From Mesostigma viride (Eukaryota; Streptophyta; Mesostigmatophyceae; Mesostigmatales; Mesostigmataceae), in the NCBI GenBank assembly GCA_009746045.1, contig RPFO01000253.1, positions 2,961,475 to 3,025,474 on the forward strand: a DNA stretch of 64,000 nt, read 5' to 3'. This document shows positions 1 to 46,627 of the stretch, piece by piece. Position 1 is the stretch's first letter, and every line of letters begins with the position of its first letter. A program made the position numbers and the translations under genes. The notes beneath the pieces were generated by a model that did no database searches, was not told where the DNA came from, and was given only the letters and a program-made list of their open reading frames with translations.

Positions 1-7
1 GGCCAGC

Positions 8-1855
8 GTGCCGGTCTCATGCTTCAGTTCTTCAGCCGGGGCTGCACGCCTCAACCCTTCCGCGGCTGCGGGCGTGGTGGAGGTCAGCATGGTGGAGGTA
101 CGGGCGGCGGGCTCATCGGCGTGGGACAAGCATCGGACGGTGCTGCCCCAGCCAACGGCGAGCATTGCCAAGATGCGCACGCAGTGGTCGCTGGATGCTG
201 TGACGTCCACGCGGCAGCTGGCTATGCGCAAGCGGGTAACTGAAGCCGTCATCACCATTCCTCAGATGGCCAGCCATGGCCTCACTTTGCTGCAACCGGG
301 TGTCTCGGAGGCCCAAGGTAATTTTTCTGCTGCAATCTTACCGCAGGCCCCTGATTTTGCCAAGGGTGCGGTAGTGTTGGAACTGTTTGCGGGGATCGGA
401 GGGGGCATTGCAGGCTTTTTGGCCGCAGGCGGCGTGTGCCGTAAACTCATCGCGGTAGAGCCATCGCACAAGGCGCGTCAGGTGTACTTCAGTCACTGTG
501 GCGTGTTGTCGCGAGAGTATCCCGCGCAGTTTCCGCCATCAGCATGGCGTGACCCGTTTGGGGAATGTCCTCAAGATATCCGAGCCATCGGTGAGGTGCA
601 GGTGCAGCAGTTGTTGCGCAGGCATCATGCCATCGACTTGGTAATTGCGGGTTGGGAGTGCCAGGGCCTGAGCCAGGCAGGGCAAGGGCGGGGGCTAGCC
701 GATCCGCGTAGCGCGCTGTTCTGGGAACTGTTGCGTGTGGTGGGACTGTTGCAGTCGCGTCAGCCCCATCCGCCTGCGTATCTGTTTGAGAACGTTGTGG
801 CGGGTGACAGCCCACATCAGGCGGTGCGGGAGGACTGGGCTACAATCGTGGCACTCCTGGGGGAGCCCATCGTGTGTGACAACGCAGGGCTGGGTGGGCT
901 CACGCATCGTTTGCGTGCCTATTGGACCAACGTGGCGTGTGCGACCGATGTGCAGGCGGTCTTGGGGGCCGTAGCAAGGCAGCATCCGAGTGTGTCTGCG
1001 GAGGTAGCATTGCCTTCCCACCTAGTCACGCAGAAGGTGGATAGCGAGGATCGCCCACCGTATGCACGCGTCAACCGGGTCGGGAGCCCCATGTGTGCAC
1101 TGCCGACCCTGGTCAGTTACCAAGGGTCGACAGCATACCGTGATCGGGGTAAGGGTCTCGTTTGGGACACTACCACCGGTCTGTTGGTGCAGCCACCCGC
1201 AGAATTTCGTGAGGCCAGCATGGGTTTTCATGTCGGGGCCTCGGCGCTGCCGGGCGTGCTCGAGAGTGAGCGCTGGTCTTTGATAGGCCAGGCTATGTCG
1301 GTGTTGCAGGTCGGGTATGTGCTGCTTGCATCGGTTGCCGTGCGCCAGTCTGGGGGGGCGTCCCCAGCCAATCCGCCTCAGCAGGTTGAGGCGCGCGCAG
1401 CCAAACTGAAGCGCCCTGCAGCGACGGGGACTTCATCAGCATGGGGGTGGCGTCTGCGACAGGTGTGGACTATCATTCTCATGACCGCCCTGCTGACCAG
1501 CACCGTGCTGGCCGGCGAGCCCACGCTGCATCGGGTAATACACCGTGCGGCACGCGAGGCTCCGGCGGTGGGTGTCACACCAGGCGTGGCAGCCTTTTCC
1601 TTGTTCCACGACGATGCGGCTAGGGCGCCGCATCTTGAGGCACATGCGGTAGCTGTGGGTGATCCCGCGGATACGCACCCCTGGGCTATTGGCGAACACC
1701 TTTCTGATGCGCAGCGCTCAGCCATGCTAAAGTGGCTAGGCACTGCAAGGGGGGCCTTCGCTTTCACAAGTGATGAACTGGGGTGTTTCAATGGTGGGAC
1801 CATGCGTGTTCCATTGGACACTGACACCCTTTGTTCCGACGCCAGCATCGCCTGA
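8..1855 (+). CDS. Retrotransposon polyprotein, N-terminal part: C5 cytosine-specific DNA methyltransferase
   Basis: The frame is open back to base 2, so the true start is outside the window. Predicted activity is transfer of methyl from S-adenosylmethionine to C5 of cytosine. Visible motifs: I, LELFAGIGGG near residue 124; III, DIRAI near 190; IV, ECQGLS with candidate nucleophile Cys218; VI, FENV near 260; VIII, RLRAYW near 301; a target-recognition region; and an IGQAM motif X near 430. Motif IV reads ECQ instead of the usual PCQ. Residues from about 485 include a short hydrophobic stretch, and the last 70 residues resemble the segment preceding Ty3 reverse transcriptase. The frame stops at 1855 while the match continues in the -1 frame. 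Fusion to a retroelement is supported by this continuity; activity is inferred. Confidence 0.82.
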   Translation: MPVSCFSSSAGAARLNPSAAAGVVEVSMVEVRAAGSSAWDKHRTVLPQPTASIAKMRTQWSLDAVTSTRQLAMRKRVTEAVITIPQMASHGLTLLQPGVSEAQGNFSAAILPQAPDFAKGAVVLELFAGIGGGIAGFLAAGGVCRKLIAVEPSHKARQVYFSHCGVLSREYPAQFPPSAWRDPFGECPQDIRAIGEVQVQQLLRRHHAIDLVIAGWECQGLSQAGQGRGLADPRSALFWELLRVVGLLQSRQPHPPAYLFENVVAGDSPHQAVREDWATIVALLGEPIVCDNAGLGGLTHRLRAYWTNVACATDVQAVLGAVARQHPSVSAEVALPSHLVTQKVDSEDRPPYARVNRVGSPMCALPTLVSYQGSTAYRDRGKGLVWDTTTGLLVQPPAEFREASMGFHVGASALPGVLESERWSLIGQAMSVLQVGYVLLASVAVRQSGGASPANPPQQVEARAAKLKRPAATGTSSAWGWRLRQVWTIILMTALLTSTVLAGEPTLHRVIHRAAREAPAVGVTPGVAAFSLFHDDAARAPHLEAHAVAVGDPADTHPWAIGEHLSDAQRSAMLKWLGTARGAFAFTSDELGCFNGGTMRVPLDTDTLCSDASIA

Positions 1856-4800
1856 GTCAGGCCGAGTTGGATTTTGTAGCCGAGCAATGCAAGGAGTTAG
1901 AGGATGCCGGTATCATCAGGCAATCTTCCTCCAGCTATGCCGCTGCCGTTGTCGTTGCGCCCAAGAAGGACGCTATCACCGGGGCATGGACGGGTATGCG
2001 CATGGCCACCGATCTGCGGTTGCTGAATGCACACACACCCGTGGACCGTTACCCCATGCCACGTGTGGATGATGTCCTGGATAAGATATCTCCTCATGTG
2101 AAGTTTGTGTCCTCGCTGGACCTGCGTAGCGGCTTTCATCAGATCGCAGTTGCGCCGGAGGATCAGCGGAAGCTTGCATTCTGGGGGGGCGGCAATTTGT
2201 ATGAGTGGGTGCGCATGCCCTTTGGGCACCGCAACGCTAGTGCTGTTTTCCAACGAGCTATGGACAAAGTGCTTGCAGGTCTTCCTTTCGCCGCTTGTTA
2301 CATTGATGATGTAATCGTCTTTAGCGCGACATTTGAGGAGCACCTGGCGCACTTGGAGCAGGTTCGCTTGGCTCTCGAGGAGCATAATATGCGGCTGCAC
2401 CCTGAGAAGTGCAAGTTCGCCCAGCGGACCCTCTCATTCCTTGGTCATCAGATTGTGCCGGGTGGCCGGACGCCTGATGCCGCCAAGGTCGAATCCATTG
2501 TGCAGGCCGCCGTACCCACGGATGTCTCAGGGGTGCGGGCGTATTTGGGTTTGGCTGGCTATTACCGAGGTTACATTGAGAACTTCAGCAGCAAGGTGAA
2601 GCCCTTGACCGAGTTACTCAAGAAGGGGTGCGTGTGGGCGTGGGGTCCCGCACAGCAACGCGCCATCGAGACAATCAAGCAGGAGCTCACGTCGGCCCCG
2701 ATTCTGCGCGCCCCTGACTATGCTTTGCCGTTTGTGTTATATACCGACTGGTCCAAGGTAGGACTGGGTGCGGTCTTGGCGCAAAAGGATGGTGATGGGC
2801 GCGAGCACGTTATTGCTTATGCTAGTCGCAGCAACAACCCAGCGGAGAGCCGGTATTCTTCCTATGAGGGGGAGGCACTGGCTGTGGTGTGGGCCATCAA
2901 GCACTTTCGCCCGTATTTAGTTGGGCGCGTGTTTACTCTGGTGACAGACCACCAGCCGCTTCAGTGGCTAATGACCAACACCAACCTGACGGGTAAGCTC
3001 GCCCGATGGGCCATGATTATCCAGGAGTACCACATGACCATTGTGCATCGGGCCGGCAAGGACCATGTCAACGCCGATGTGCTATCCCGATACGCCATGC
3101 CTACCACTGTTGACCACACTGGAGCCCGGGCCATGGGTGCCGAGGGCTCGTCGGGTTCTGTGGTCTTTGTGAACGCTGCTGGGTATGCGGCCGACGATGA
3201 GGAGGAGGCGTGGTGGCGCAGTGTCGAGTACTCTGTGGCGGACTTCGGCATCAGCGACGACCCGGTGCGGCCGTCGCCATTCACGCCATCCAAAGCTGTG
3301 TGCGCTATGGAAGAGGGTAGGTCTCTGTCCTTTGACATTGATCCTTCTCTGCAGCAGCTGATCGCTGTGCAGGCTCTCTTAGCGCGTAGCTCTCTTGCTG
3401 ATTGCTACACCGCTGATATCTGGCTAGATGGTCGAGTTTTGGAGCAAGTGCAGGGTGCTGTCTTGACTCCTACTCCAGTCGATTGGACTCCTGCTCAGAA
3501 GGCGACGGAGTTGAACAGGGTGCAGCACAGGGCTGCAACCTATGGTTGGGAAGATGGGGTTTTGTACAAGCTGTTGGGCAAGCGTAGGGTGGTCGTCCCA
3601 CCGCCTGACAAGCGCGTTGCTATAGTGCAGGCGTACCACGAGCGGTATGGTCACTTGGGTGGCAATCGCACGCTCAGCCTCGTACGGACCAGCTATTGGT
3701 GGAATAACATGCGACACACAGTGGCCCAGGTAGTGGCCAGCTGTGTCCCGTGTGCTCGAACCAAGGCTAACTTTAGCGCAGATCATGGTGCCAAGGAGCT
3801 GATGTCGCTTCCCATCAAGGGCTTGTTTTATCGCTGGCACGTCGATCTGTGCGGGCCGTTTCAGGAGAGCCCTGACGGCAACCTCTATGTCATGGTATGC
3901 GTGGAGAGCTTTAGCAAATGGGTTGAGTTGATCCCCATTGCTGACAAGCATGCCGCTACCACAGCGAAGCATTTTGCAGACATCATCACCAGGTTTGGGG
4001 CTCCCGCGGAGGTAGTCACGGACCAGGGTGGTGAGTTCAGGGGTGAGTTCCAGGAGTTGCTGGATGGATGTCTTATTGATCACCGTCGCACTTCTCGGGA
4101 GCATCCTCAGGCCAATGGTTTGGCTGAGAGATTGGTGCAGACCGTCAAGCAGGCGCTGCGCAAGTGGAGCCTGCAGGTGCCGGAGTCGGCCAGGTGGGAT
4201 CGCGAGTTGGCATGGATTGCCATGGGTTATCGCATGTCTCCCCAGGAGTCTCTCGCTACCTTCTCCCCGTATTTCCTTCTGTTCGGGCGTAATCCTCTTT
4301 TGCCTACGGAGGCACAGGTTGCGCACCCCGAACCCATGGCCTTCGACAACGCTCAGCAATTTTTGGTTGAGGTGCTGGCCAGGGCAGAGACTTTTAAGAA
4401 GGTCATGCCCATCGCGATGAACAACTTGTTCATTGCTCAGCACAGGGACTCCCTGCGTTACGCTCAGCGCCGGGGGGGCGCATACATGGCTCGCCAGCTG
4501 CGGTTTAGGCCAGGGCAGTATGTTTTCCTGCGCACTCAGCTGAAGCACACTTTGGATGTGGAGGCGGGGCCCACCATTTTGCGCATTGTGGCTATCAAAC
4601 CATCGGGAGTGGCAATTTTGGAGGGCGCCGACGGGAGCCGTACGACAGACAACCTCAGCAATCTCAGTCCCTGCTCACTGCCCAATTTGGTCCACGACCT
4701 CCAACCGCACACATCTCGCCGAGTCAAGGACGCCCAGTGTCAGGTTTGTCACCGGGTCGATCAGGCGGAGTCCATGTTATTGTGTGATCAGTGTAACTGT

Positions 4801-4950
4801 GGTTGGCACATGCAGTGCTTGCAGCCCGTGGTCACCAGCATTCCGGAGGGGGATTGGTTTTGTCCAGTGTGCACCGCTGCGCAGTTTACCTCCCGCAGCT
4901 TGACTGCGGTCACCGCTGCCCTTGTCTTGGTACGATCGCTGTCTTCGTGA
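1831..4950 (+). CDS. pol: Ty3/gypsy Pol: reverse transcriptase, RNase H, integrase, C-terminal PHD finger
   Basis: About 1039 residues, entered from the methyltransferase frame by a -1 displacement near 1828; no ATG precedes the first RT residues. RT catalytic motif YIDDVIVF lies at about residue 156. RNase H follows near 300, with TDWSK where many relatives have TDASK, and a later TDHQPLQW. The integrase HHCC zinc region is near 605-645, and the DDE residues lie in HVDLCGPF (about 670), VVTDQGGEF (728) and NGLAERL (763). Residues 969-1024 form a C4HC3 PHD finger (CQVC, LLCDQC, GWHMQC, FCPVC), occupying the place where chromoviruses carry a chromodomain. PHD fingers bind histone H3 tails, so a role in targeting integration is plausible but inferred. 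The frame ends 31 bases before the 3' LTR. Confidence 0.9.
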   Translation: MFRRQHRLSQAELDFVAEQCKELEDAGIIRQSSSSYAAAVVVAPKKDAITGAWTGMRMATDLRLLNAHTPVDRYPMPRVDDVLDKISPHVKFVSSLDLRSGFHQIAVAPEDQRKLAFWGGGNLYEWVRMPFGHRNASAVFQRAMDKVLAGLPFAACYIDDVIVFSATFEEHLAHLEQVRLALEEHNMRLHPEKCKFAQRTLSFLGHQIVPGGRTPDAAKVESIVQAAVPTDVSGVRAYLGLAGYYRGYIENFSSKVKPLTELLKKGCVWAWGPAQQRAIETIKQELTSAPILRAPDYALPFVLYTDWSKVGLGAVLAQKDGDGREHVIAYASRSNNPAESRYSSYEGEALAVVWAIKHFRPYLVGRVFTLVTDHQPLQWLMTNTNLTGKLARWAMIIQEYHMTIVHRAGKDHVNADVLSRYAMPTTVDHTGARAMGAEGSSGSVVFVNAAGYAADDEEEAWWRSVEYSVADFGISDDPVRPSPFTPSKAVCAMEEGRSLSFDIDPSLQQLIAVQALLARSSLADCYTADIWLDGRVLEQVQGAVLTPTPVDWTPAQKATELNRVQHRAATYGWEDGVLYKLLGKRRVVVPPPDKRVAIVQAYHERYGHLGGNRTLSLVRTSYWWNNMRHTVAQVVASCVPCARTKANFSADHGAKELMSLPIKGLFYRWHVDLCGPFQESPDGNLYVMVCVESFSKWVELIPIADKHAATTAKHFADIITRFGAPAEVVTDQGGEFRGEFQELLDGCLIDHRRTSREHPQANGLAERLVQTVKQALRKWSLQVPESARWDRELAWIAMGYRMSPQESLATFSPYFLLFGRNPLLPTEAQVAHPEPMAFDNAQQFLVEVLARAETFKKVMPIAMNNLFIAQHRDSLRYAQRRGGAYMARQLRFRPGQYVFLRTQLKHTLDVEAGPTILRIVAIKPSGVAILEGADGSRTTDNLSNLSPCSLPNLVHDLQPHTSRRVKDAQCQVCHRVDQAESMLLCDQCNCGWHMQCLQPVVTSIPEGDWFCPVCTAAQFTSRSLTAVTAALVLVRSLSS

Positions 4951-4967: not shown

Positions 4968-4978
4968 GAGGGGGGGAA
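4968..4978 (+). other. Polypurine tract of the methyltransferase Ty3 element
   Basis: An uninterrupted purine run, GAGGGGGGGAA, lies a few bases before the TGGGACAGG start of the LTR. This is the expected position of the plus-strand primer. Confidence 0.65.
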
Positions 4979-4981
4979 TCA

Positions 4982-6261
4982 TGGGACAGGTCCTCGCCCA
5001 CCCCACAGGGCATGCAGTTAAGGCAGGCACATCAGCTCAGCTCATTTGGGTTTTACCAAATTAAGCTGAGTGGCCAGCCGCCATGGTGGCGCCGGAGATT
5101 GTGGCACGCAGACGCGACAGCTGTCACGGACGCGCGCTATGTCATCCGGGCGCCCACTATGCACAAGACCGGTGACGTGCGCAAGGAATTTGTCTTCTAC
5201 GCATTTTCGACAAAGGCTAGTGACCGGGGGGGACACTAGCACTTGCAGCATAAGAGCGGACGAAAGTGTACGTGCACGCGCGCCGGGCCAGGCACAGCTG
5301 GGCGCGCAGCACTGACTTGAGCGGACGGCAGCACAAGTGTGCAGCGTCGAGAGGATCATACGCGTGTTAGTGGACAGCTGGAGCTGAAGCTGGACTGCTG
5401 GACTTCAACAGCGCCGAGGCTATTGACAGGCCAGGTGTCTTTGTGGTGTAGAATAGCGGGTCAACGTTATGAGGACTGGACAGAAAATGGAAAAGGACAA
5501 TTTGCGGTGCGGAGCCAGATCGCTGGAATGAATGCGAAATCGCTGGCAGCCCTAAAAAGGGATTTCTTCTAGAAAGGAACGATTAGACGCAATGTTTGCT
5601 GGGCCACTCACACGCAAGGTGTGAGCGTGCAGATTGTCTGAAGGATATTATGCTTCGACCTTGCTGGACGTGACTCAATGTCGGACATTCCCAGGGACAG
5701 AAATGCCGGAGCCTCTAGGAGATGAGATCGGCAACAGGGTAGCAATTTAGATTTGTCGGGATGCCTTCCTGCTTTTGTTGGCATGTGTGGTAGAAAGCCA
5801 GGACGGCAACTGGAATGCGGTTTCTATTCGCATGGTTCAGGCAGCAAGATAGTTTTGGCATTCCTGGCTGGACTGACAAGTGTGGCGTGTGTCATGCGTG
5901 TGGCATGACGAATGGTTTGGTTCATAGTCGAAGAGGACTCTCACGCAGCGTGTAGTCTCTTCGAGTCTCTCGTTAGTGGCCTTCGTGTTTCTCCCTTTCC
6001 TTGGGAGCAAGGCCGGTAGCATGTCATGGAGCGCTGCCTAACTGCGGGCTCGTGAGCATGGAGTGCATCGATATTGAGACTATCAACGTGTTGTAATTGT
6101 ATTAACTTTCTCAATAAACTCCGCATGTGCGGCTTCATCATCAGACTGTGCAAAGTGTGTGTTTTGAAAGCATTATTCTATAGCAGGGGAGGCAATAAGG
6201 TGGTTATCAGGCACGAGGGACAGTTCCTTGTCCTCGGCTGAGAGCCCTCCTTTCTTTAATC
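4982..6261 (+). repeat. 3' LTR of the methyltransferase Ty3 element (1280 bp)
   Basis: Starts TGGGACAGG right after the polypurine tract and ends in CA at 6261, where the identical start sequence begins again. That spacing defines a 1280-bp TG...CA unit. An AATAAA signal near 6113 could serve in transcript 3'-end formation. No coding sequence is seen. The boundaries rest on the repeated start sequence because the 5' LTR is outside the window. Confidence 0.65.
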
Positions 6262-6400
6262 ATGGGACAGGTCCTCGCCCACCCCACAGGGCATGCAGTT
6301 AAGGCAGGCACATCAGCTCAGCTCATTTGGGTTTTACCAAATTAAGCTGAGTGGCCAGCCGCCATGGTGGCGCCGGAGATTGTGGCACGCAGACGCGACA
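6262..6400 (+). repeat. Truncated second LTR copy abutting the first
   Basis: These 139 bases repeat the first 139 bases of the LTR with no visible difference (TGGGACAGG through GCAGACGCGACAG). They are then cut off where family 1 non-LTR sequence begins. The two LTR units touch with no spacer, like a two-LTR junction. Confidence 0.75.
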
Positions 6401-9400
6401 GGGTGTACTCCATTCACGGGCGCGCTCAGCACGCGCGCGCCTGTGTTGCTCAACGGCCCCTCAACCGGCCAGCAGTCCCGGCCCCCTCCCCCCCTCCCGC
6501 CTCGGCTCCCACCGGCTCCCAGCCCCCGCCGCCCGACTACTCGGCCAGTTGGCGTTGGCTTGACACGGTTCCCTGGGATGCATGCGCCATCAACCCGACG
6601 TCTACCCTGACCGACCTCCCCCACCGCGCGCGTAGCCTTTTCGCGCAATGTGCAATCGCTTCTCTCCGGCGCATGCACGCCGCTCCGGACGACCCGCTTG
6701 GCTTTAAACTGCACATGGTGACCCCCCGCCTGCTCCTCACCCCTCTCGGGCGTGGTGTGCGCGGCCTCCAGGGTGCGGTTATTGCCCGTTGCCGACGCTT
6801 TCTGCAGGGGGACTGGGAGGGGCTGTTTGACGTGCCGCCCCCGCGCACGGCCCGGCTGTCGGGGGAGGTCAACTTCGAGCGGGTGGCCGCCGACGTCATC
6901 CGCCTCGTCCGCGAGGGGCAGCTCAGCCGGGCCATGACCCGCTTGGAAATGGCCAAGCTGGCCCCCGCCAATGCGGCTACCCTGGCGGCCTTGGAGGCTC
7001 TTCACCCTGCGGAGCCCGGATTCCAGCTGCCCGTGCCGGACCCCCTGCCGGCCCCCCTCCGGCTGGACCGCGACTGCTTCCTGGAGGTGATGCGTGCGGT
7101 CCCGCGGGCTTCCTCTACCGGGCCGTCGGGCTGGCGCTACGAGCACTTGGAGGTCCTGGTGGGGCATGGGGGCGAGGACATTCTCTTTGACACCCTCATT
7201 GACCTGGCGGCTGGTCGCGTTCCTCCCGCTGCGCGCGAGTGGTTAGCGGGCGCTCGCCTCCTCGCTCTGCTCAAGGGTGTCTTGCCCCCCCCGAGGGCAA
7301 GGTGCGCCCGATCGCCTGCGGTGAGGTGCTCCGCAAGCTCGTGGGCAAAGTGATCTGCCGCCAAAAGGCGCCCGAGCTCCGTGCCTTTTTCTGCCCGCCC
7401 CTCGCAGCGGGTGAGACCTCGGTGGCGGCCCAGCTGGGGGTGACGACTCCAGGCGGGGCGGATATCCTCATCCATTCGGTGCAGGCCTACCTCGAGGCCC
7501 ACCCCACCCACGCTGTCGTCAAGGTCGACTGCCACAACGCGTTCAACAGTCTGTCCCGCGCCAGCATGTTTGCGGCCGTCATGGAGTCCTTCGAGGACTT
7601 GTACGCTTGGACAGCCGTGTGCTACGGCCAGCCCGGCCAACTGGTTCACATCATGGAGGACGGCACTCGCGGCGGCCTGCTGTCGCGGACGGGCACCCAG
7701 CAAGGGGACCCCCTGGGACCCCTGTACTTTGCCGCCCCCCTCCAGGGTTGCCTCCAAGCGGTCCATGCTGCCCACCCGGCGGTCGCTATTCAGGCCTACT
7801 TGGATGATATCTACCTTCTGGGCCCTGTGCCGGACACCACCGCGGCTCTGCTGGCACTGCAGACCGCGGTGGCCGACATCAACCTCCAGTTGACCCTGGC
7901 CAAGTGCGCGGTGTACTCGCCCCAAGGTGATTGCTCCGGCTTTCCGCCCCAGCTCTTGGGCCGGGACGAGCGCCTCCATGGGTTGGATGTCCTCGGCGTT
8001 CCGGTTGGCGACCCCGCGTTTGTCATCGATGCTCTGCGGGCCGCCCTCGAGGCACGCACTGAGGTACTGCCCTTGATTGCGCGCCTTCATGATTCGCAGA
8101 CCAAGGGTCTGCTTCTGTGGTTTTGCGCTTACCCTCGCGTCGTTCACTGGCTCTGGGGCGCTCTTCCCGGGCTCAGGTCCGGCTGGCCGCCGAGGGCCAC
8201 GACGAACGCATCCAGTCGGCCTTGGCGCAGCTGGTCCCGGGCCCCGACCTCCCGCCACATGCTATTCGCATTGCCTCCCTGCCTGCACGGATGGGTGGCT
8301 GTGGTCTGACTCGTGCCGCCCGGCTGGCCCCAGCAGCATTTTTGGGCTCCGTCGCTCAGTCGTGGGCGGAAAGCTGCCGGCTCCTGCCCCTTTTGGCAAC
8401 GGCAGCGCCTGACCTCCTGGACCCCAGCAACCCCTTGCCCTTCGTCACTGCCATCCAGGAGGCCTATGCTGAGATCCAGCAGGCCTGTTCTCCCGTCCGT
8501 GCCGCTCAGGCGGTACAGCGCCACCTCCCTCGCGGCACTCCCTCGGTCGCCTCCGTTCAATCTCCCGCCGCATTCCCTGCTCGCGTCATCGATAAACACC
8601 AGAAAACCTACGCGGGTATTCTTCTGCACACGGCTGATTGGATTGCTCTTTTCGCGGACCTCAACGCCCAGGGACGTGCGTGGCTGTTCTCGCTTTCCTT
8701 GCGGAGTGTGGGCTCGGCGTACCTTCATGCTCTTCCCATGGCCCCCCCATTCGCCTTGGCTCCCAGCCACTATACTCGGTGGCGCTCCGGCACCAGCTAT
8801 TTGCCCCGCAGCCTCTTGTTCCGGCCGGGCGGCCTTGTGGTAGCTGTGGGCAGCCGCTGGATCCCACGGGGACTCACTACCTTTCCTGCATGGGGGGCCA
8901 ACAGAATCAGAATTGGTATTTGTATTTGCACACTGTCCTCCTGACGGTGGTGCTCGCCATGATTCGGTCGGTTTTCCCCCACGCGAACATCCGGTCCGAG
9001 GATGCGGATGGCGCTGCCTTCTATTCCCCCAACCACCGGCCTGACATCGTGGTGCTGGACTTTGAGGGGGTGGCCGGCATCTGCTTATCGACGTTTCGGT
9101 GGCGCGGCCCTTGGCTCTTAGCCACGTGGCTGGGGCCTCCCTCACGGCAGGTTACACGGCGGACCGGGCGGAGCGGGCCAAGCTCCTGGCCTACGGCGAC
9201 GTCGGGCACCATCGTGTGGTGCCCTTTGTCCTGGAGGAGTTTGGGGCTATGGGGCCCCTGACCTCCGCCTTCTTCAAGGAGTGTTGCCGGCTCCGGGAGG
9301 ACCGGCTGGACCTGGAGGGCCAGCGGGCCTCATGGTCGGCGCGGACCTGGACGTCATATTGGCGTCAGCGCTTGTCGGTGGCGCTGACTCGGGCCATGGC

Positions 9401-9588
9401 TGACATCATGCTCCGCCGTACGCGGGCTGATTTTGCGGTGCAGCAGGGTTATTAGGTTCCTCCCGTTAGGCGTTTCCATTGGTCTTATCGTAGTATAGAG
9501 ATTTGACATGGCTCTGTATAGAGGTTTATAGCTGGGCGTTTGCTTTGGTTTGAGTGATTTCACTCTGCTGTAAGTAATTATATTATTA
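6401..9588 (+). mobile_element. Family 1 non-LTR retrotransposon copy A, 5'-truncated and frameshifted
   Basis: Plus-strand relic starting inside the second N-terminal zinc finger (VYSIHGRAQ) and running through RT (RPIACGEVL, VDCHNAFNS, GTQQGDPLGP, AYLDDIYLL), the CCHC knuckle and the endonuclease (RPDIVVLDF). The frame stops at 9455 and a 3' UTR of about 130 bases follows. Compared with the copy at 47460-52563 it has several indels (for example near 8165, 8625 and 9068) that break the frame, so it is a dead copy. The 5' junction lies in LTR sequence and shares a base or two with it, as expected for 5' truncation during target-primed reverse transcription or for a later deletion. Confidence 0.85.
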
Positions 9589-9599
9589 AATATATATAT

Positions 9600-11049
9600 T
9601 AAAAATATAATTACTTACAGCAGAGTGAAATCACTCAAACCAAAGCAAACGCCCAGCTATAAACCTATATACAGAGACATGTCAAAGCTCTATACTACGA
9701 TAAGACCAATGGAAACGCCTAACGGGAGGAACCTAATAGCCCTGCTGCACCGCAAAATCAGCCCGCGTACGGCGGAGCATGATGTCAGCCATGGCCCGCG
9801 TCAGCGCCACCGACAAGCGCTGACGCCAATATGACGTCCAGGTCCGCGCCGACCATGGGGCCCGCTGGCCCTCCAGGTCCAGCCGGTCCTCGATCCCGGA
9901 GCCGGCAACACTCCTTGAAGAAGGCGGAGGTCAGGGGCCCCATGGCCCCAAACTCCTCCAGGACAAAGGGCACCACACGATGGTGCCCGACGTCGCCGTA
10001 GGCCAGGAGCTTGGCCCGCTCCGCCCGGTCCGCCGTGTAACCTGCCGTGAGGGAGGCCCCAGCCACGTGGCTAAGAGCCAAGGGCCGCGCCACCGAAACG
10101 TCAATAAGCAGATGCCGGCCACCCCCCTCAAAGTCCAGCACCACGATGTCAGGCCGGTGGTTGGGGGAATAGAAGGCAGCGCCATCCGCATCCTCGGACC
10201 GGATGTTCGCGTGGGGGAAAACCGACCGAATCATGGCGAGCACCACCGTCAGGAGGACAGTGTGCAAATACAAATACCAATTCTGATTCTGTTGGCCCCC
10301 CATGCAGGAAAGGTAGTGAGTCCCCGTGGGATCCAGCGGCTGCCCACAGCTACCACAAGGCCGCCCGGCCGGAACAAGAGGCTGCGGGGCAAATAGCTGG
10401 TGCCAGAGCGCCACCGAGTAGTGGCTGGGAGCCAAGGCGAATGGGGGGGCCATGGGAAGAGCACGAAGGTACGCCGAGCCCACACTCCGCAAGGAAAGCG
10501 AGAACAGCCACGCACGTCCCTGGGCGTTGAGGTCCGCGAAAAGAGCAATCCAATCAGCCGTGTGCAGAATACCCGCGTAGGTTTTCTGGTGTTTATCGAT
10601 GACGCGAGCAGGGAATGCGGCGGGAGATTGAACGGAGGCGACCGAGGGAGTGCCGCGAGGGAGGTGGCGCTGGACCGCCTGAGCGGCACGGACGGGAGAA
10701 CAGGCCTGCTGGATCTCAGCATAGGCCTCCTGGATGGCGGTGACGAAGGGCAAAGGGCTGCTGGGGTCCAGGAGGTCAGGCGCTGCCGTTGCCAAAAGGG
10801 GCAGGAGCCGGCAGCGACTTTCCGCCCACGACTGAGCGACGGAGCCCAAAAAGGCTGCTGGGGCCAGCCGGGCGGCACGAGTCAGACCGCAGCCACCCAT
10901 CCGTGCAGGCAGGGAGGCAATGCGAATAGCATGTGGCGGGAGGTCGGGGCCCGGGACCAGCTGCGCCAAGGCCGACTGGATGCGTTCGTCGTGGCCCTCG
11001 GCGGCCAGCCGGACCTGAGCCGGAAGAGCGCCCCGGAGCCAGTGAACGA
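9600..11049 (-). mobile_element. Family 1 non-LTR retrotransposon copy B, 5'-truncated, inverted relative to A
   Basis: Minus-strand copy of the family 1 C-terminal part: end of RT, CCHC knuckle, restriction-like endonuclease and 3' UTR. Its 3' end (complement of TAAAAATATAATTAC) faces the 3' end of copy A across 9589-9599, AATATATATAT. The 5' end is truncated at 11049 and is directly followed by (AT)n. Small indels disrupt the endonuclease frame near its end (9893-9900). A second, weaker reason to treat it as inactive is that it lacks all RT catalytic motifs. Confidence 0.85.
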
Positions 11050-15978: not shown

Positions 15979-16550
15979 TGTTACGTCGCGTAACAATTCG
16001 TGTAGTTACGGACGTAAATTAGGTCTTTTGCCTCGGTTGTCCCTAGGTTTACGTTTAGGCTCCTACCGGGACATTATTGTCTTCGTAACAGTACTGTGGT
16101 ACATTGGGTGCCGTTGGGCGCCGCGCCGCGTACTTTACTAGTGGTCCTGATCCTGTGGTAGAATGTAGTGGACCAGCGTGCACCAGTAGATGTAGTGGAC
16201 CAGCGTGCATCTGTAGGCGAGGGCCATGTCGGCCCGAGCGTGTTGGACCGTTGGTGACCATTTATGCGCGTTCTACCCCTTGTGTGTGCACTCGGCGTGT
16301 GTTAAGTGAATTGACACATTTAGGCTTGGGTCACGGCAGTGTAGTTGTGTTTCCTTCCTCTATTCCTGGAGTAAACGGGTTTTGGTAAATGGTTGTATGG
16401 CGTATTATAGCAACACTTACGTTAATGCATTGAGATCAGCTCCGTCACGTTCGTCTTTCGCCAGAGGGTTAAGTAGAGGAGGCCTGACCAGTTTAGGTAG
16501 TATCAGGCCCATTAGAGGTAGAGGTGGAGGTAGATATCCGCGGCGTAACA
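15979..16550 (+). repeat. 5' LTR of the chromovirus
   Basis: Begins TGTTACGTCGCGTAACA and ends CGGCGTAACA, so the ends are the usual TG...CA with an extended inverted match TGTTACG/CGTAACA. The base after the LTR starts ATGGTTCCGG, a TGG-containing candidate primer-binding site. Confidence 0.92.
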
Positions 16551-17083
16551 ATGGTTCCGGAGGAACTTCAGTAGGTAGTGAACGAGACGACTATCCCTTG
16601 CCACATACACCTTTTCAAGACCCCTTCCGCGTCCAGGAACAAGAAGTCGACACTTCCTTGATAGGTAATGGGCGGGTCGCCTTCAAGCTAGGAGCGTCGT
16701 GCTGCCCGTTTCGGGACACGCTTTACCTAGAAGCTAGACCTGCTCACAGCGGATAAATCCTTTCGTAGTTAGCCTGTCCTTCGCCTTGTTTTCCTGCTTA
16801 CGGTTGTTTCCTGCCTTAGATCGGGGAGTATTACTGTTCGGAGACGATTAGCGTCGCCGTACCTACACCTTTTTCCTTGTGCTGCTGCTTTATTAGACGG
16901 CCGCACCCGCAGAGTTACGGGGCGCTGTGTTAGGACGAGCGCTGGGATATCCGGCCGCTGACTTAGGACGAGAGCTGGAAACTCCCGCCCTCCTTCTTCT
17001 TTCGGTGATCCAGATCGTCAAGCTAAGTCGCCTACCCCTACCTCGTCTAGCTTGACATCACAAGACACGCCAGGTGAGTTATC

Positions 17084-17476
17084 ATGAGTCAACGTCGTGT
17101 TTTTACTGCGCCTTCCCATTCATCTAGTGATAATAGTTTAGCTAAGTATTACGTAGTTATTACCCCTCAATGGTCAGCCATTTTCCTCTCTTGGTCAGAT
17201 GCTAGGAAGATAGTGCAAAACCGTACATATAATGTAATTAGGTATAAGAAATTTGTTACCTTCGAGGAAGCTCAACAATTCCTTATAGACCATAGCGTAT
17301 CAGATCTAGGCCTACACGTACGTTCTACTCCTCATGGTCGCCCTCCTGTAGAAGCTCTAGATTTTGCTACCCCTCCTTCGTCTCCCCCTAAGAGGGCTGC
17401 ATCCTCATCTAGCTTAGATACTCCTCTCACCTTGGAATTCGGTTCCCTATCCATTACTGTTGTTAAAAAGGACTGA
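17084..17476 (+). CDS. Small ORF with RNase H1 N-terminal / Cauli_VI-like hybrid-binding domain
   Basis: 130 residues starting at an ATG after the leader and before gag. Residues about 22-66 carry the signature of the RNase H1 N-terminal / caulimovirus P6-type domain: YYVVITPQW, then FLSWSDARKIV, then VIRYKKFVTFEEAQQFL. In RNase H1 this fold binds RNA:DNA hybrids or double-stranded RNA. The remainder is serine/proline-rich and looks disordered. There is no RNase H catalytic domain in this ORF; the element's RNase H is in pol. The role could be nucleic-acid binding during reverse transcription or translation of the polycistronic RNA, both inferred. The domain call is from pattern recognition only. 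Confidence 0.68.
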   Translation: MSQRRVFTAPSHSSSDNSLAKYYVVITPQWSAIFLSWSDARKIVQNRTYNVIRYKKFVTFEEAQQFLIDHSVSDLGLHVRSTPHGRPPVEALDFATPPSSPPKRAASSSSLDTPLTLEFGSLSITVVKKD

Positions 17477-17600
17477 TTTAAATTGTTCCTTTCTTTTAAG
17501 CCATTAAAATCTTTTCCTTTTCTTTCCTTGCCTTATATTAGGCCTTGTCCTTTATCCTTGTTGCTTTCAGTTAGATTTTTGATCATTTACTTAAACAAAA

Positions 17601-19261
17601 ATGGATCCAATGGGTGGTAACCTGTCGCCTATACCTACCAATACTCCTACTATGAATAATAATAATAATAATAATAATAACAACCATAACAACAATCGGG
17701 GTAACCGACGGGACTCACTTGAAACGGTACACCATCTCACTCCTCAAGGTAATCTTCGTGCCTCACCTCCTTCTCCGCTTGCTGATGGTCGCCGTCGTCC
17801 CTCACTTACCCCTCCTACCTATGAACAACGTCAACGTATGCAAGTCAGATTTAGTGATGACCCTTCCCTTACCCTGAACCAGGCCCCTGCCCCTCCTGCA
17901 ACCTTGGCTCAACCCTCCAGCAGGTCCTCACTAACTAACAATGTTTTTAGGCCTCCTTCCCACCCTGTTCCTTCCATGCCTGCTCTTAACACGGGTCGTG
18001 CCTCTGCCCCTGTCGGTCCTTCTGGGCGCCCTAGTGCAGTTCCCTTTTACCCACCTGCTTCCTGGTCCTACCCTGAGACGGCCTATGAGGCAGCCCAGGT
18101 CCCTACCCGTGTGGCTGATTTAGAAGTTAATAGTGATTTCAGCACCATGCCCTTAGATGACAGAAATTATGATCATTTTGCCTATTCCTCTCTTCGTGAG
18201 CAATATACTGTCCCCTTCTCTTATGGGCACCAGCCTGAAACGGTGGCCCCGTCTAGACCCCTACCCAAGACTTTTCCTCTTCCTTCCTTCTATCCCGCTT
18301 ATGTAGCAGTGGAAGCTAGTGGCCCTATGGGAAAAACTGACTCTTCTAATCCCCCTAAGCCCCCTGCTCTTCCCCTCTTTGCTAACCTTCCCAAGCTGGA
18401 TGTCAAGTCTACCCCTCAACAGTTTTTCACCTTTATTATGTTGCTTACACAGAACACGGAGTCGTGGCAGAATCATAATAGATGGCGTCTTTCTGATGCT
18501 GTATTAGTTCCTCACTATCTCACAACCTGTATTACTCCTGAGCTTGCTAACCTCATTCAGTGTGAGTCTTTGGCCTCTCATGCCTACCCTAACTCTGTAG
18601 CAGAATTGTTTAAGCGTTTAGAGAACCATTTAGTCCCTCCTGATTCAGATTGGCAGGATAGATTAGCCTTTGGTACCTTGCAGCAGGGTACTAAATCATT
18701 TAAGGAGTATATGAAAGAGTTTGATGCTCAGATGGTACGAATTAGGGATTTGTCGGGTGCAGAAGTACGTGCTCGCTTCCTCCAAGGCCTCAGTAGACCC
18801 TTATTACGTGAAGTCAAGCGCCAGTTCTCTGCCTACCGTTTTACTGATCTGCCCCTCAAGCATGTGCGCCAGCATCTCTTGCGTGTAGCAGATTTCTTCA
18901 CCACCCTTCTCTTCCTACCCGTTCCCGTATTAATAATATTATCCTTACCCCTGAGGAGGAGAACTCCTATGTAGAAGAATTAGATATCTGTGTTACTGAC
19001 CTTTCAGCCCTTGATGTCTCTCATATCACATGCTATCATTGTAAGGAAGTAGGTCATCTTAAACGTGAGTGCCCCAAGTTCCTTTCGGGTGCTCCCCCTC
19101 ATCCCGACGCTCGCCCTCCTCGTACCCCTCAGCGTGCTCCTATTCGTCCTACTTCAGGACGCATTCCTTCAGCTACCCCTAGTAGGCTGAATGCTGTGCA
19201 GACAGGATCCCCAGGGTTCCCCTATGATAATCAGGCTCCCGCACCCTCTTCTCCCTCGTGA
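17601..19261 (+). CDS. gag: Gag with CCHC zinc knuckle (frame displaced near 18900)
   Basis: Starts at ATG 17601. Near the N-terminus an AAT microsatellite encodes an asparagine run. Residues about 250-440 resemble a retrotransposon Gag core (FFTFIMLLTQN, LKHVRQHLLRVADFF). The original frame stops at 18974. The -1 frame continues without interruption through an acidic stretch and a CCHC zinc knuckle, CYHCKEVGHLKREC at 19031-19072, to a TGA at 19259-19261. The zinc knuckle must belong to Gag, so either one base was lost around 18900 or the ribosome slips. The knuckle would bind the element RNA in the virus-like particle. Confidence 0.82.
17654..17680 (+). repeat. (AAT)n microsatellite in gag
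   Basis: About nine AAT units followed by an AAC-rich tail. It encodes the asparagine tract near the Gag N-terminus. Confidence 0.85.
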
Positions 19262-19451
19262 CCCTCCAGCAGTGGCTTTTCCGCCAGGGTCTTCTTCGGG
19301 GTTAGTTCCTATGGATTTGGGGGGGAGGGGGAACAGTAGGCCTGTCAGCCGGGGGTAACCTGGACAGGTCCTTAGATAGTACCCCAGATAAAATTTTTGC
19401 CTGCCTGTTTTTATAACCTCTGTAGGAGCTGAATCTTCCCTACCACTACGT

Positions 19452-22400
19452 GTGCGTCCTCTTATGTTCTTGAATGGTGGTTTAACCGTCCCTCACACTG
19501 TTGTAGACCCCTTCTTGCATGCTGATGAACTCTTGAATGTCTCTGTGTTGGTAGATAGCGGTGCGGCTAGCTCCTTTGTGAGCGAGGCCCTAGTTAGACG
19601 TTTAGGACTAGTCCCTACCCCTCACACCAAACCCGTTACTGTTCATTATGCTGATGGTCGCACCAGTCATTCCCCGGGTACGGTGTCCCTTCCCATGGTT
19701 ATACAAGGACGTACTGTCAACCTGACGGCCACTATAGGCCCTATCACTACCGCTGATGTATTACTAGGATTAGATTGGCACCAGGATAATAAGATTACTA
19801 TTAATTATGATACCATGGTCATTTGGTTTCCAGATAGCTCTTACTGGGTACCTGAACGTCATTATAGATTGGAAAATTTATCCTTGGTAGATATTACTCC
19901 TCCTACACCTGTTGATCCTCCTGTAAGACCTATACCTGAAGTATTAATGTCAAATGACGAATTACGTTCTGAATTAAAGCAAAATGGATACCTATTATGT
20001 ATGTTCCTTCAGTTAGAAGTACAAGAGATACCTATCACTAATAATAGTGTGGATATAGATGTAAATACAGTGGATACAATAGGAGTAGGATTTACTGAAA
20101 ATGAAATAGTAAGATACATGGCTGTGATAGATTCCTCAAAAGTATTTGAAGAAAAGACTCCTTCTTATCCTCCTCCTCGTTCTGTTTTACACCGTGTAGT
20201 TATCAAGGACGGTGCAGTTCCTACGCACTCTCCGATGTATAGAATGGGCCCTACCGAGTTAAAGGAACTAAAACAGATTTTAGTGTCATTATTAGAAGCA
20301 GGATTGATAGAGCCTAGTAACTCCCCCTACTCAGCTGGTGTCCTGTTAGTTCCTAAGCCAAATGGCAAGTTTCGCCTAGTTACTGATTATAGGAAGTTGA
20401 ATGATATTACTGTGAAATCTAAATACCCTCTACCTCGTATTGATGATATATTTAATAAGGTTAAAGGTTCCACTTGTTTCACAGTACTGGATTGTGCGGA
20501 TGGTTTTTGGCAGTTGCGGATAGCTCCTGAGGATTGCCATAAAACCGCCTTTGCTACCCCTTTTGGTCATTACCAGTTTAGAGTAGCGGCTATGGGACTC
20601 TGTAACTCGCCTGCCTCTTTTCAAATGTTAATGAATGAAGTGCTTAGACCTGTTATGGGAAATTCTCATCTTCCTCAGGTGTCCTCTGATCTAAAGGATC
20701 CCTCCTTCTCCTCTGTTTCTTTATCTGAGCATGACCGTTCTTGTGCTCAAGCTTACTTAGATGATATTCTTATTTACTCTCCTGATTTTGAAACGCACCT
20801 ACGTGATTTAAAGAAAGTATTAGAAATAATGGCTGAAAATTCTTTGTGGGCGCGCCGTGCTAAAGTGCGTTCGGGTAGGAGTGTCCCATTTTTAGGGCAC
20901 GTTCTGTCAGATGCCGGGGTCGCTACCGACCCGGATAAAACTAAGTCAATTCAGGAATGGCCTACTCCTACCGACGTTAAAGGTGTACGTAGTTTCCTAG
21001 GAATTGCTTCTTACTATAGGCGTTTTATCCCGCGTTTCGCCACTATAGCAGCCCCTATTAATCATTTATTAAAGAAGGATATCCCCTTTGTTTGGAGTAG
21101 TGAGTGTCAGTCTGCTTTTCAGTGCCTAAAATCCCTACTCCTTTCCCCTCCTGTACTCATCCTACCGGATACTACTAAACCCTTTGTTGTGGCTACAGAT
21201 GCTAGTAAAGTAGCTATAGGTGGTGTCCTTCTCCAGGATCAGGGTCAGGGCTTACAGCCAATTGAGTATATCTCTAGGACAATGCTCCCTGCGGAGCGTA
21301 ACTATCCCGTCCACCAGCAGGAACTCTTAGCTGTGGTGTATTGTTGCCACGCGTGGCAGCACTTCCTTAAAGGTGCTCAATTTGATGTCTGCCTGAATGA
21401 ACCCTGTGAGCTAGATCCTTATAGGTTAGTTATCCAAACGGATCATCGTCCCCTTACCCATCTTCTCTCCCAACCCAACCTTACCCCTCGGCAAGCGCGC
21501 TGGATGGAATTTTTAGCACAGTTTTCCCCTTTTAAACTTCAGTATGTCAAGGGTGTAGATAACATAGTACCAGATGCACTCTCTCGTCGTGCAGACTATT
21601 CCTTCTTCGAGGACCTTGATGTTCTCAATACTACTCTAGTTCCTACTACTATGGGTGTAACCCCTTATGGTGAACTACCTGATGATGATTCCTATGCCTA
21701 CCTCTTTCATACAGCTGTTCGCATGCCTGATCTCCTTTCTCACGTAGGACTCTCTCTCCCGTGTGAGGCCCTTCCTGTGGCCTCGGTGGGGGGGAGGGGA
21801 AAAATAAAATTTCTATACCGCTTAGCCATATAGCGACTAGGTCAGGAAAGTCTTATGAAAACGTAGTCCCTAGGACCTCCCCTTCTCTTCGGCAAGGCGG
21901 TAGGAGATCTCTTTAAACCTGTTCTGGATACTTCTGTAGCGATGCCTACCTCTGATCTTGAACGCCTTATTAGTAGATTTACGGCCACTGAGCCGGAAGC
22001 ATTAGCTGCCATTGCTGCACATCCCCAACAATTAGGCAAGCACCCTTGTAAATTTGTAGGTGGGTTTTTATATGTGCAGATAGCAGATTCTCCCCCTCAA
22101 TGGCGCCTGTATGTCCCTCCTATCTGTCGCTCCTCCTTGCTCTTTGAGTTGCATGACTTAGCTGCTCACAGGGTGGTAAACGGGTACGGGACCTAGTAGC
22201 CCGCTCTTATTACTGGCCTTCCCTTTATAAGGATGTGGATGAGTATGTTAGAACTTGTCAATCTTGCCAGGAAATGAAACCCAATAATGTAGGACAGATA
22301 GCAGAACCTAGGACCTTGCCTGACCCTATCATGCCTTGGGATTCTATCATGATGGATTTTGTAGGACCTTTTAGAAAGAATGATAGGGGCAATGCCCAAA

Positions 22401-23467
22401 TCCTTGTGTTCATAGATCGTTTTACTCGTATGTGCCATCTTGTGCCGTGTCCTTTAGAACTCACCGCACGTGATTGCGCACGCCTATACCTCAATAATGT
22501 ATATAGATATCATGGATTGAGTAGGCAGTTTATTAGTGATAAGGATAAATTATTTACCTCAGATTTTTGGCAGCAGTTTTTCGCTGCCATCGGTACCAAG
22601 GTTACCTACGGTACTGCCTACCACTCCTCCTCCTCTCATTTAGTAGAGCGTCTTAATAGAGTAGTAGAAGAAGCGCTTAGGCACTATGTTAATGGCTCGG
22701 GTAGTGATTGGGAGGATTATTTATGTTTGGTAGAGTTCTCCCTCAACAATTGTCCCCAAGCTGCGCATGGATATACGCCCTTCTTCTTAGATACTGGGAG
22801 ACAGCCCCTTACCCCTACCTCTCTCTTAGCTAGTCCTCTACGGGACAAGGATGATGTGTCCCGAGATACTGTAGAAGGTGTACAGTCCTTACTAGATAGA
22901 ATGAAAACTGCTCATGACCACGCGATCTCAGGGTATCAAAAAGCTCAGGCTAAGTACCTTGCTAGGTTGCGTGCCTCCTTAGATAGACGAGCACCTGAGA
23001 TAGAAGTAGGAGATCTAGTATTAGTAGAAGGCCCCCGTGTTGGCCGTTTTGCTCATAAGTTTGAAGCAGAACTGAAGGTCAAACTTAGGCCTGCCTTCTT
23101 AGGACCCTTCCATGTGTTGTCTAGGGTAGGAAATTTCTTGTATAAAGTCGATATCCCTACCTCTTGGCAAACGCATTCAAACACCTTCCATAGGAGCCAG
23201 CTTAAACTGTACCACCCTAGTACGTTCGCTGGCAGGGAGTTAGCGCCTGCCCCTTTAGAGCATAATCCTGACACTGGGGAAGTAGAAGACGAAGTAGAAA
23301 GCATCGTGGCCCATCGAGATATCAAAAAGGGCCGCGGTACCCAGCGTCAGTATAAAGTGAAGTGGATGTATGCTCGTAGTGAAGTAGATAAGGTTTGGTA
23401 TACGGAGAGTGAGCTAGATGGGTGTAGTCGCCTGCTGCAGGAATATAAAACCCTGCACAAGCTCTAG
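19452..23467 (+). pseudogene. pol: Chromovirus Pol (protease, RT, RNase H, integrase, chromodomain), disrupted
   Basis: First frame 19452-21833: retropepsin motif VDSGAASSF with DVLLGLDW, RT motif YLDDILIYS near residue 433, RNase H motif ATDASKVAIGG near 577 and TDHRPLTHLL. The frame then meets stops at 21831 and 21872. It resumes in the same frame to 22196 with the first integrase zinc residues, and shifts by one base near 22170 into 22235-23467. That last part carries CQSCQE, the DDE residues (MMDFVGPF, FISDKDKL, LVERLNR) and a C-terminal chromodomain around residues 350-405 (EVESIVAHRD, YKVKWMY, ESELDGCS). Chromodomains direct chromovirus integration to marked chromatin. The stops and single-base loss imply an inactive pol in this copy. 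Confidence 0.88.
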
Positions 23468-23543
23468 TCGTAGGCCTTCTCCTCTCTTATGTTATGTCTG
23501 CTGTCGACGGGTGGTTGGTTGTCCCCTCCCCTCCGCAGCCGTC

Positions 23544-25836: not shown

Positions 25837-26190
25837 AGGGCCTTAGGCCCGACCTGAGGGTGTTGTCCCTCCGGTATGTAGAGTCGCCCTCATATTCTGG
25901 CCAGTTGGTTGGCTGTTCTTGGTCCTTGGCGCTGATGTGTTTACTCTGTGTGTCCTGCCCAGTGCCGTCCCCCCCGGCCAGGACTCCGTTCCAGGCAGTT
26001 AGGGGAACCTACCACCAGGCTTGGTGCTGGCTAACCCTACACCACCCGGCGTGGTGGTGGAGACCGTGTGAACTATTGGTGCTTTGTATCTGGGATGGTC
26101 TATCGATTGTGTTGGTGTGTGCTGGGTGCATTAGGTTTTTCCTACCCCTTGGTTTCCTCCCTGTGCGTAGGGAGAGGGCTCCCTACCTTT
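25837..26190 (+). other. Non-coding 3' segment of the chromovirus
   Basis: Between the extra frame and the polypurine tract. I see no convincing coding sequence, only AT/GC-mixed sequence with short repeats of CCTACC and GGTGG. Confidence 0.4.
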
Positions 26191-26203
26191 GTGGGGGGGG
26201 AGG
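26191..26203 (+). other. Polypurine tract of the chromovirus
   Basis: The run GTGGGGGGGGAGG lies immediately before the TGTTACG start of the 3' LTR. This is the expected plus-strand primer site. Confidence 0.75.
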
Positions 26204-26776
26204 TGTTACGTCGCGTAACAATTCGTTGTAGTTACGGACGTAAATTAGGTCCTTTGCCTCGGTTGTCCCTAGGTTTACGTTTAGGCTCCTACCGGGACAT
26301 TATTGTCCTCGTAACAGTACTGTGGTACATTGGGTGCCGTTGGGCGCCGCGCCGCGTACTTTACTAGTGGTCCTGATCCTGTGGTAGAATGTAGTGGACC
26401 AGCGTGCATCAGTAGATTTAGTGGACCAGCGTGCATCTGTAGGCGAGGGCCATGTCGGCCCGAGCGTGTTGGACCGTTGGTGACCATTTATGCGCGTTCT
26501 ACCCCTTGTGTGTGCACTCGGCGTGTGTTAAGTGAATTGACACATTTAGGCTTGGGTCACGGCAGTGTAGTTGTGTTTCCTTCCTCTATTCCTGGAGTAA
26601 ACGGGTTTTGGTAAATGGTTGTATGGCGTATTATAGCAACACTTACGTTAATGCATTGAGATCAGCTCCGTCACGTTCGTCTTTCGCCAGAGGGTTAAGT
26701 AGAGGAGGCCTGACCAGTTTAGGTAGTATCAGGCCCATTAGAGGTAGAGGTGGAGGTAGATATCCGCGGCGTAACA
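26204..26776 (+). repeat. 3' LTR of the chromovirus
   Basis: 573 bp, matching the 5' LTR except for a one-base insertion (CGTTGTAG versus CGTGTAG) and a few substitutions. It is followed by the GCGGC target duplication. Confidence 0.92.
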
Positions 26777-31165: not shown

Positions 31166-31335
31166 AATAGTTGAATCAACGGGTTCTTGCAGCTGTAAAC
31201 ATTAAAATTATTCAAACATTTAATGAAAAAATCATTATTGTTCGTGCTGTCTTGAACAGCGGTTGTTACTGGCACTGCATGCATGTGTCTGCTGCCAGCA
31301 TATTGCATTATGGGTGTGTTTTTCAGCGCTGTGTT

Positions 31336-31690
31336 TTCTCACTTTTCTCACGTCCTGTTTTTCTCACTTTTCTCACTTTTCTCACGTCCTGTTTTTCTCA
31401 CTTTTCTCACTTTTCTCACGTCCTGATTTTCTCACTTTTCTCACGTTTCACACCTCCCGTTTTTCTCACTTATCTCACGTCCTGTTTTTTGAGATTTTTC
31501 TCACGTTTTTCCCCTTTTTTCACCTTTTTGGGGCAATCTCACCCGGGTGAGAAACGTGTTTTCTCACCCATTCTCACCCCATTCTCACCCTTTTTTCTCA
31601 CCTTTCTCACCCATTCTCACCCATTTCTCACCCTTTTTCTCACCTTTCTCACCCTTTTTCTCACCATTTCTCACCCATTCTCAAAGCCGA
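31336..31690. repeat. CACTA right subterminal repeat array
   Basis: Repeated TTTTCTCAC, CTCACGTCCTG and CTCACCC motifs run up to the right terminus. This is the inverted counterpart of the left array. Confidence 0.85.
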
Positions 31691-31783: not shown

Positions 31784-31814
31784 TGAATTAAAGTCGTTTA
31801 CCATAGACAAAATC

Positions 31815-46619: not shown

Positions 46620-46627
46620 ATATATAT

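Follow-up and report, generated by a model that had tools for sequence, protein, structure and literature searches.

DNA methyltransferases carried by retroelements have been described before, some DNMT3s being embedded in retrotransposons (PMC12344493). In KnitGypsy-Dnmt3 of Klebsormidium nitens (de Mendoza et al. 2018, PMC5890265), a Dnmt3 whose methyltransferase is under purifying selection lies in a Gypsy Pol, and the repeats are DIRS-like (legend of Fig. 4c). SymbioDIRS-Dnmt3 from the same paper combines A-coding-B-A-B repeats with a Dnmt3 in Pol, and why a parasite carries a DNA methyltransferase, usually a silencing enzyme, has been an open question in print since 2018 (PMC5890265). Other Gypsy elements carry chromatin readers: those of Ectocarpus have chromodomain and Tudor readers, one lineage having in addition a NADAR domain in the N-terminal portion of Pol, and the Tudor element is presented as the first transposable element reported with a Tudor domain (PMC12477816). 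Here we describe an element, a member of a family that we call F1, in a 64,000-nt stretch of Mesostigma viride DNA (the window; positions 2961475-3025474 of contig RPFO01000253.1, which is C667 in a 440-Mb assembly, G000), whose Ty3-type Pol carries both a C5 DNA methyltransferase (MTase), probably DNMT3-like, and a PHD finger, and whose terminal repeats are split.

The element is the same kind of thing as KnitGypsy-Dnmt3: compared by description, both have a DNMT3-type MTase in a Gypsy Pol together with DIRS-like repeats (PMC5890265). The PHD finger, the target duplications and the way the repeats are inherited are additions. In the main text of that paper PHD is absent, and we found target duplications mentioned nowhere in the parts compared (PMC5890265). 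SymbioDIRS-Dnmt3 and SymbioLINE-Dnmt also hold an MTase inside a retroelement, but the former uses a tyrosine recombinase and the latter is a long interspersed nuclear element (LINE), whereas the present element has a DDE integrase and a Ty3 Pol. With the Ectocarpus Gypsy elements it shares a C-terminal chromatin reader and an extra enzyme domain in Pol; both reader and enzyme differ, and no C5 MTase in Pol is described in the portions of PMC12477816 that were compared. In the accessible parts of the open-access literature (including PMC3286476 and PMC8969392), we recognised neither a PHD-bearing Ty3 Pol nor split repeats combined with a DDE integrase. Most worth attention are the putative writer and reader in one Pol and the split repeats with a DDE integrase. 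Because one of the families spread so recently, the former allows self-marking and the choice of targets to be tested on new insertions, and the latter, with target duplications and separately descending repeats, lies outside the textbook cycle of long terminal repeat (LTR) elements and is directly testable.

The part coding for MTase to PHD occupies window positions 2-4950 on the plus strand, where the MTase is followed by a Ty3-type reverse transcriptase (RT), RNase H, a DDE integrase and the PHD finger. In Pfam searches, the frame at 2-1852 matched DNA_methylase (PF00145, E 6.7e-12) and the frame at 1825-4947 matched RVT_1, RNase H, Integrase_H2C2, rve and PHD (E 4.7e-9). The first part of Pol (MTase, spacer and pre-RT linker; 2-1822) continues from upstream, and its frame ends at 1855, past a break in the linker (1601-1860). 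The MTase domain, delimited by Pfam, motifs, a two-family profile and conservation, covers 338-1369, and is followed by the RT (RVT_1, 1960-2454), RNase H (RT_RNaseH and RT_RNaseH_2, 2641-3030), the zinc-binding domain and core of the integrase (3598-4129) with its acidic triad at codons 3844, 4021 and 4126 (spacing of 58 and 34 residues), and the PHD finger at the C-terminus (4738-4872). The Ty3/gypsy Pol order and gypsy-type domains were detected by Pfam in the window copy and in a second family, F2. In the window frames Pfam matched no chromodomain in Pol, the PHD being found instead, and no tyrosine recombinase was matched in the frames scanned (the 5' leader lies outside the scan); Rfam and tRNA scans of the window gave zero matches. 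In L032, the stretch upstream of the window (own numbering), L032:7727-8998 encodes a zinc knuckle and a protease-like stretch in a frame that enters window frame 2. The Pol order is therefore zinc knuckle, protease-like stretch, MTase, RT, RNase H, integrase and PHD, and the initial annotation, in which Pol started with the MTase, needs correction because these two parts precede it in the same frame. Another upstream frame in L032, overlapped by the zinc-knuckle frame, was taken as gag from its position alone. The window copy extends from about 9 kb upstream of the window to position 6400, and it carries, by subtraction against nine other copies, approximately 4.7 kb of surplus DNA between the 5' repeat A1 and L032:6790, an insertion near the start of gag; together with the linker break, the copy is disabled at two places.

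Further full copies, which the initial annotation had recommended looking for, were found in the assembly with the MTase as query. Of 534 candidate places we scored 112, and each of these matched the 363-aa query over its full length, without a stop, at a rounded identity of 100%; the counts are lower bounds, as the list holds the best matches and older copies may be missing. Open frames measured 2074 aa in 39 copies, 1042 aa in 21 (including the window copy), 1195 aa in 10 and other lengths in the remaining 42. The one-base displacement between MTase and RT reported earlier is thus present in the window copy, where it sits in the pre-RT linker, but it is a defect common to a subfamily, the linker being unbroken in the 39 copies with the long frame. 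Since the break falls inside a linker specific to Pol, it must have arisen later and does not mark an old gene border. The sharing of the 1042-aa state by 21 copies hints that broken copies may be mobilised in trans or that the break may be read through. We set aside a programmed frameshift between MTase and RT in view of the single-frame copies and of the second family, which has no break there, although the subfamily sharing the break might use one. That MTase and RT belong to one Pol, as first proposed, is borne out by the MTase frame entering the pre-RT linker, by the single-frame copies and by the same domain order in two families, and no copy seen lacked the MTase or had it as a separate insertion, given that the MTase was the query.

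The second family was revealed by a genome search with PF00145 (123 of 415 candidates scored). In one F2 copy (L076), the end of gag and a zinc knuckle share a frame, and a second frame, of 1642 aa, encodes MTase, RT, RNase H, integrase and PHD. Among 117 of 514 candidates scored for F2, at least 29 places had 86-100% identity (1642-aa frame in 6, stops in 4), the next matches were F1 at 66%, and no intermediate match was found. Comparing F1 with one F2 copy, identity and the ratio of nonsynonymous to synonymous differences (pN/pS) were 84% and 0.14 for RT-RNase H, 76% and 0.22 for the integrase, 74% and 0.21 for the PHD, 66% and 0.31 for the MTase core, 56% and 0.33 for the pre-RT linker, 46% and 0.53 for the connector, 37% and 0.57 for the spacer, 33% and 0.62 for the N-terminal part, and 32% and 0.65 for the tail, where pN/pS merely ranks the parts of Pol because synonymous sites are saturated. 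Judged by these figures, the MTase and the PHD form islands of constraint between flanks that are not conserved.

The C5-MTase motifs I, IV, VI, VIII and X named in the initial annotation could be read, as could motif IX; we take the stretches at 371-406 (I), 632-673 (IV, reading ECQ), 779-799 (VI), 902-931 (VIII), 1205-1243 (IX) and 1271-1297 (X) to be these motifs. The PF00145 match itself spans the first part alone (residues 125-265). A profile of F1 and F2 ranked DNMT3A first (4.2e-6), followed by 4onj (1.2e-5; listed as a DNA methyltransferase and presumably a plant DRM), HhaI (3.6e-5), DNMT3C (6.6e-5), DNMT3B (1.4e-4) and DRM2 (2.3e-4); DNMT2 had 0.71. When three phage enzymes, which bias the profile, were included, the order was DNMT3A, 3C, 3B, HhaI, HaeIII and DRM2, and a single F1 sequence as query placed 4onj first (4.9e-5). 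The profile score thus favours a DNMT3-like enzyme, by a narrow margin over HhaI. A structure of the MTase predicted from two sequences had a mean predicted local distance difference test score of 33.8 and was not used. Viral contigs gave one weak MTase match and zero matches to the RT-PHD frame, phage records 239 matches (40 listed, at 24.8-38.7% identity) and plasmid records 1. As a separate observation, the assembly holds full-score C5 MTases (C35:17404-18288, C67:20746-21285, C1579:8868612-8869151 and C1912:2785958-2786497, among others) with PF00145 scores of 140-161 bits, open frames of 309-364 aa and sets of identical scores. Many lie on small contigs and some on large ones, and they may belong to a further mobile element, a virus or a contaminant.

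The PHD finger is complete, as originally annotated, with all C4HC3 zinc ligands present, and is conserved in F2. Against solved structures, 97 sequences fell below 1e-3, and among the 60 listed BAZ2B (9.5e-16), Lid, CHD4, BAZ2A and ATXR5 were at the top. In PHD fingers that bind H3K4me3, a Trp of the cage stands two residues before the zinc His; the element has Gly at this position, and our guess is therefore that unmodified H3 may be the target. Chromoviruses likewise have a chromatin reader after the integrase, but here it is a PHD and not a chromodomain, and the repeats are split and not ordinary LTRs.

The repeats, which the initial annotation had missed, are arranged as A1-int-B1-A2-B2, with A (approximately 1136 bp) at both ends and B (143 bp) flanking the 3' A. 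This is the split direct repeat layout, A-int-B-A-B, that defines DIRS/PAT elements (PMC8969392); the element does not have two like LTRs, one per end, and A1 differs from A2. A polypurine tract read from the sequence (GAGGGGGGG, 4968-4976, with a similar tract in F2) directly precedes B1 (4977-5119), and repeat comparison placed A2 at 5122-6257 (partner A1 at L032:6-1143) and B2, whose ...GACA is the right end of the element, at 6258-6400, all on the plus strand. The outer ends are TGTC...GACA (TG...CA), and at the palindromic B1/A2 junction (5117-5124, core of GACA-GC-TGTC) the same ends adjoin with two bases between them. Flank comparison showed that the window copy was inserted in a LINE, which resumes after a 4-bp target duplication (GGGT, 6401-6404) found likewise left of A1. 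The empty site is represented by LINE copies at 50347-50693 and 55666-56009, which match the joined flanks (99.1% without gaps and 98.3% with 3 gap positions, respectively); the match takes in 53 bases of the left flank, which farther left matches other LINE parts.

We inspected the ends of 20 copies, including the window copy, and found both outer ends in 15 (not in C887, C1a, C2000a, C2000b and C1215). Thirteen of these had the layout A-int-B-A-B and two (C1912 and C224) A-int-B, and identical tetramers flanked 13 of the 15 (11/13 and 2/2, respectively). The two A-int-B copies are not claimed as proof of circle integration, because recombination between B1 and B2 has an identical outcome. 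In C1912, A combines one allele of the A1 type with one of the A2 type. In F2, the B1/A2 place has a longer palindrome (CGCGACAGCTGTCGCG), B1 is preceded by a purine tract, and 1264 bp further on the sequence examined ended 65 nt into B2. Judged by coordinates, A stands both before and after the MTase at 6 F2 loci (C1690, C1613, C2100, C2156, C2200 and C69; 40 of 119 candidates scored). The window also holds a Ty3 chromovirus (15979-26776) with gag, protease, RT, integrase and a chromodomain after the integrase. Used as a control, it has ordinary LTRs (15979-16550 and 26204-26776, 573 bp) that are 99.1% alike.

In the textbook LTR cycle, one template remakes both repeats. We aligned 33 A sequences, including 13 copies with both A1 and A2, and at columns 14, 76, 99, 108, 276 and 712 the minor allele was confined to A1 in 26/26 copy-by-column cases, with identical A1 alleles recurring from copy to copy. 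Of these cases, 12 came from column 108 (a G-run of 8 vs. 7), where C1646 is the sole copy of 13 with the short run in both repeats, and columns 829, 882, 957 and 988 had one discordant copy each. A1 and A2 therefore descend separately over most of their length, A being not made alike upstream of approximately 880 and partly made alike after approximately 1000. The pattern fits an RNA that runs from the front of A1 into A2, ending beyond the AATAAA of A 992, and a transfer between the repeats that is confined to the far 3' portion of A. Directly after A1 (L032:1143-1157) lies a 15-nt complement of A 831-845 (5952-5966 in A2, plus strand), a length reached by 0/2000 Markov shuffles; the pairing is present in the minimum-energy fold (z -2.24, 2/100 shuffles folding as well), and self-priming is a possible role. 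Elements of the Tf1 type are self-primed, the primer being the 5' end of their RNA. The likeness lies in a sequence beside the 5' repeat that is complementary to the element's own transcript, and the difference in the place of the complement, which here is inside the putative transcript. In a separate place, C2000:177700-214200 (L058-L061), private variants are common to the A1 of one copy and the A2 of the next, which might reflect the splitting of a single element or the joining of two by recombination.

Family F1 spread very recently and its copies are nearly identical: set against the window copy, 30 loci chosen as the best-scoring copies and including the window copy itself (119 kb) carried 3 substitutions and 14 indels as singletons, plus 9 shared variants. 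Differences between A1 and A2 were not used for dating, because insertion does not equalise these repeats. The CpG observed/expected ratio (o/e) was 0.81 in the element, 0.78 in the F2 Pol, 0.86 in the LINE, 0.73 in the chromovirus and 0.12 in a Copia-type RT remnant of the window (36771-39023). The last value suggests that the genome was CpG-methylated in the past.

Overall, we put at about 0.5 the probability that F1 is a Ty3/gypsy-lineage element with MTase and PHD in its Pol, split repeats, and a cycle and functions of the following kind. The transcript would begin at the first base of A1, or close to it, and end in A2, and the 15-nt self-complement beside A1 might prime minus-strand DNA, so that A1 would pass no more than its 3' part on to A2. 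The integrase would then cut the palindromic B-GC-A junction of circular or joined cDNA, yielding the inserting A...B form. The MTase may methylate cytosines in newly made cDNA or in a fresh insertion, which would then pass as native or quiet DNA, and the PHD, at the position of the chromodomain in chromoviruses, could tether the integration complex to H3 tails and thereby steer insertion. A mixed life cycle with all of these parts (RNA starting in A1, self-primed cDNA with separate A lineages, DDE cutting of B-GC-A in circular or joined cDNA, 4-bp duplications, DNMT3 marking and a PHD choosing chromatin) is proposed only tentatively and is on the doubtful side.

Several observations weigh against this picture, the weakest links of which are the presumed activity of the ECQ enzyme and the hypothetical circular or joined cDNA. 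Pro-Cys is expected in motif IV of DNMT3 methyltransferases, and in both families Glu replaces the usual Pro of PCQ. The element shows no CpG depletion, its o/e being close to that of the LINE, so that no methylation decay is visible, and CpG C>T accounts for only 1/3 singleton substitutions; the element may be too young for CpG decay. At columns 1004, 1040, 1042, 1047, 1049 and 1090, A1 equals A2 in just 13/23 cases (4/4 at 1042, 5/7 at 1004, where two have gaps, and 2/4, 1/5, 0/1 and 1/2 in the remaining four columns), and the homogenised part is therefore not clean. C998 and C1646 lack a target duplication. The parts upstream of the MTase score below Pfam cut-offs (zinc knuckle 19.8 vs. 20.8 bits, protease-like stretch 16.4 vs. 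28.2 bits, with DSG and ALLGVD spotted by eye), and the gag candidate frame had no Pfam match.

The enzymatic role is where rival explanations carry most weight. The MTase could methylate no DNA at all, being a passenger or an inactive module that binds DNA or RNA and, for instance, handles the element's RNA. The ECQ motif of both families and the undepleted CpG speak for this; the KnitGypsy and SymbioLINE enzymes also produced no methylation in yeast, a result called inconclusive by its authors (PMC5890265). The catalytic Cys, ENV and the other motifs are nevertheless kept between families whose synonymous sites are saturated, and we regard this explanation as plausible, if unlikely. It has also been proposed that such an enzyme serves restraint, the element silencing its own copies and sparing the host and so itself (an option raised in PMC5890265), which would agree with the conservation of the MTase and sits badly with the very recent spread of the family; we consider it distinctly unlikely.

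Explanations that deny the structure fare worse. A true DIRS/PAT element with a gypsy-like Pol, inserted by a tyrosine recombinase without target duplication, would account for the split direct repeats, but it is very improbable in view of the DDE integrase with its triad, the frames scanned without a recombinase match (5' leader outside the scan) and the 4-bp duplications in 13/15 copies. We know of no target duplication in DIRS/PAT elements; circle intermediates could be common to them and the present element. Slighter still are the prospects of an ordinary LTR element with an LTR of B+A (1281 bp), in which nesting or truncation removed the 5' B and added a 3' B: the polypurine tract does abut B1, a transcript R-U5...B1-R would be normal and a 144-bp repeat recurs at 1281-bp spacing, but the empty site contradicts it, as do the A-int-B-A-B layout of 13/15 two-ended copies (11/13 with target duplications outside A1 and B2), the same layout in F2 and the unlikeness of A1 and A2. 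A chance neighbourhood of MTase and RT, as two separate insertions or genes, which the frame displacement in the window copy might have indicated, has practically no likelihood, being contradicted by the single 2074-aa frame in 39/112 scored copies and the 1642-aa frame from MTase to PHD in F2.

Around the element favoured here, a Ty3/gypsy-lineage retrotransposon with split repeats, the window contains many near-identical, often inverted LINE pieces (6401-11049 and approximately 45700-56800), with an RVT_1 match at 47596-49842 on the minus strand and a RING finger in an adjoining minus-strand frame (49695-51998). TTTCTCAC-like repeat arrays lie at 31334-31683, next to a 1125-aa open frame (31782-35156, CpG o/e 0.39) without a Pfam match. 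A DUF1997 protein, which we take to belong to a plastid-related family, is encoded at 60426-61328 on the minus strand.

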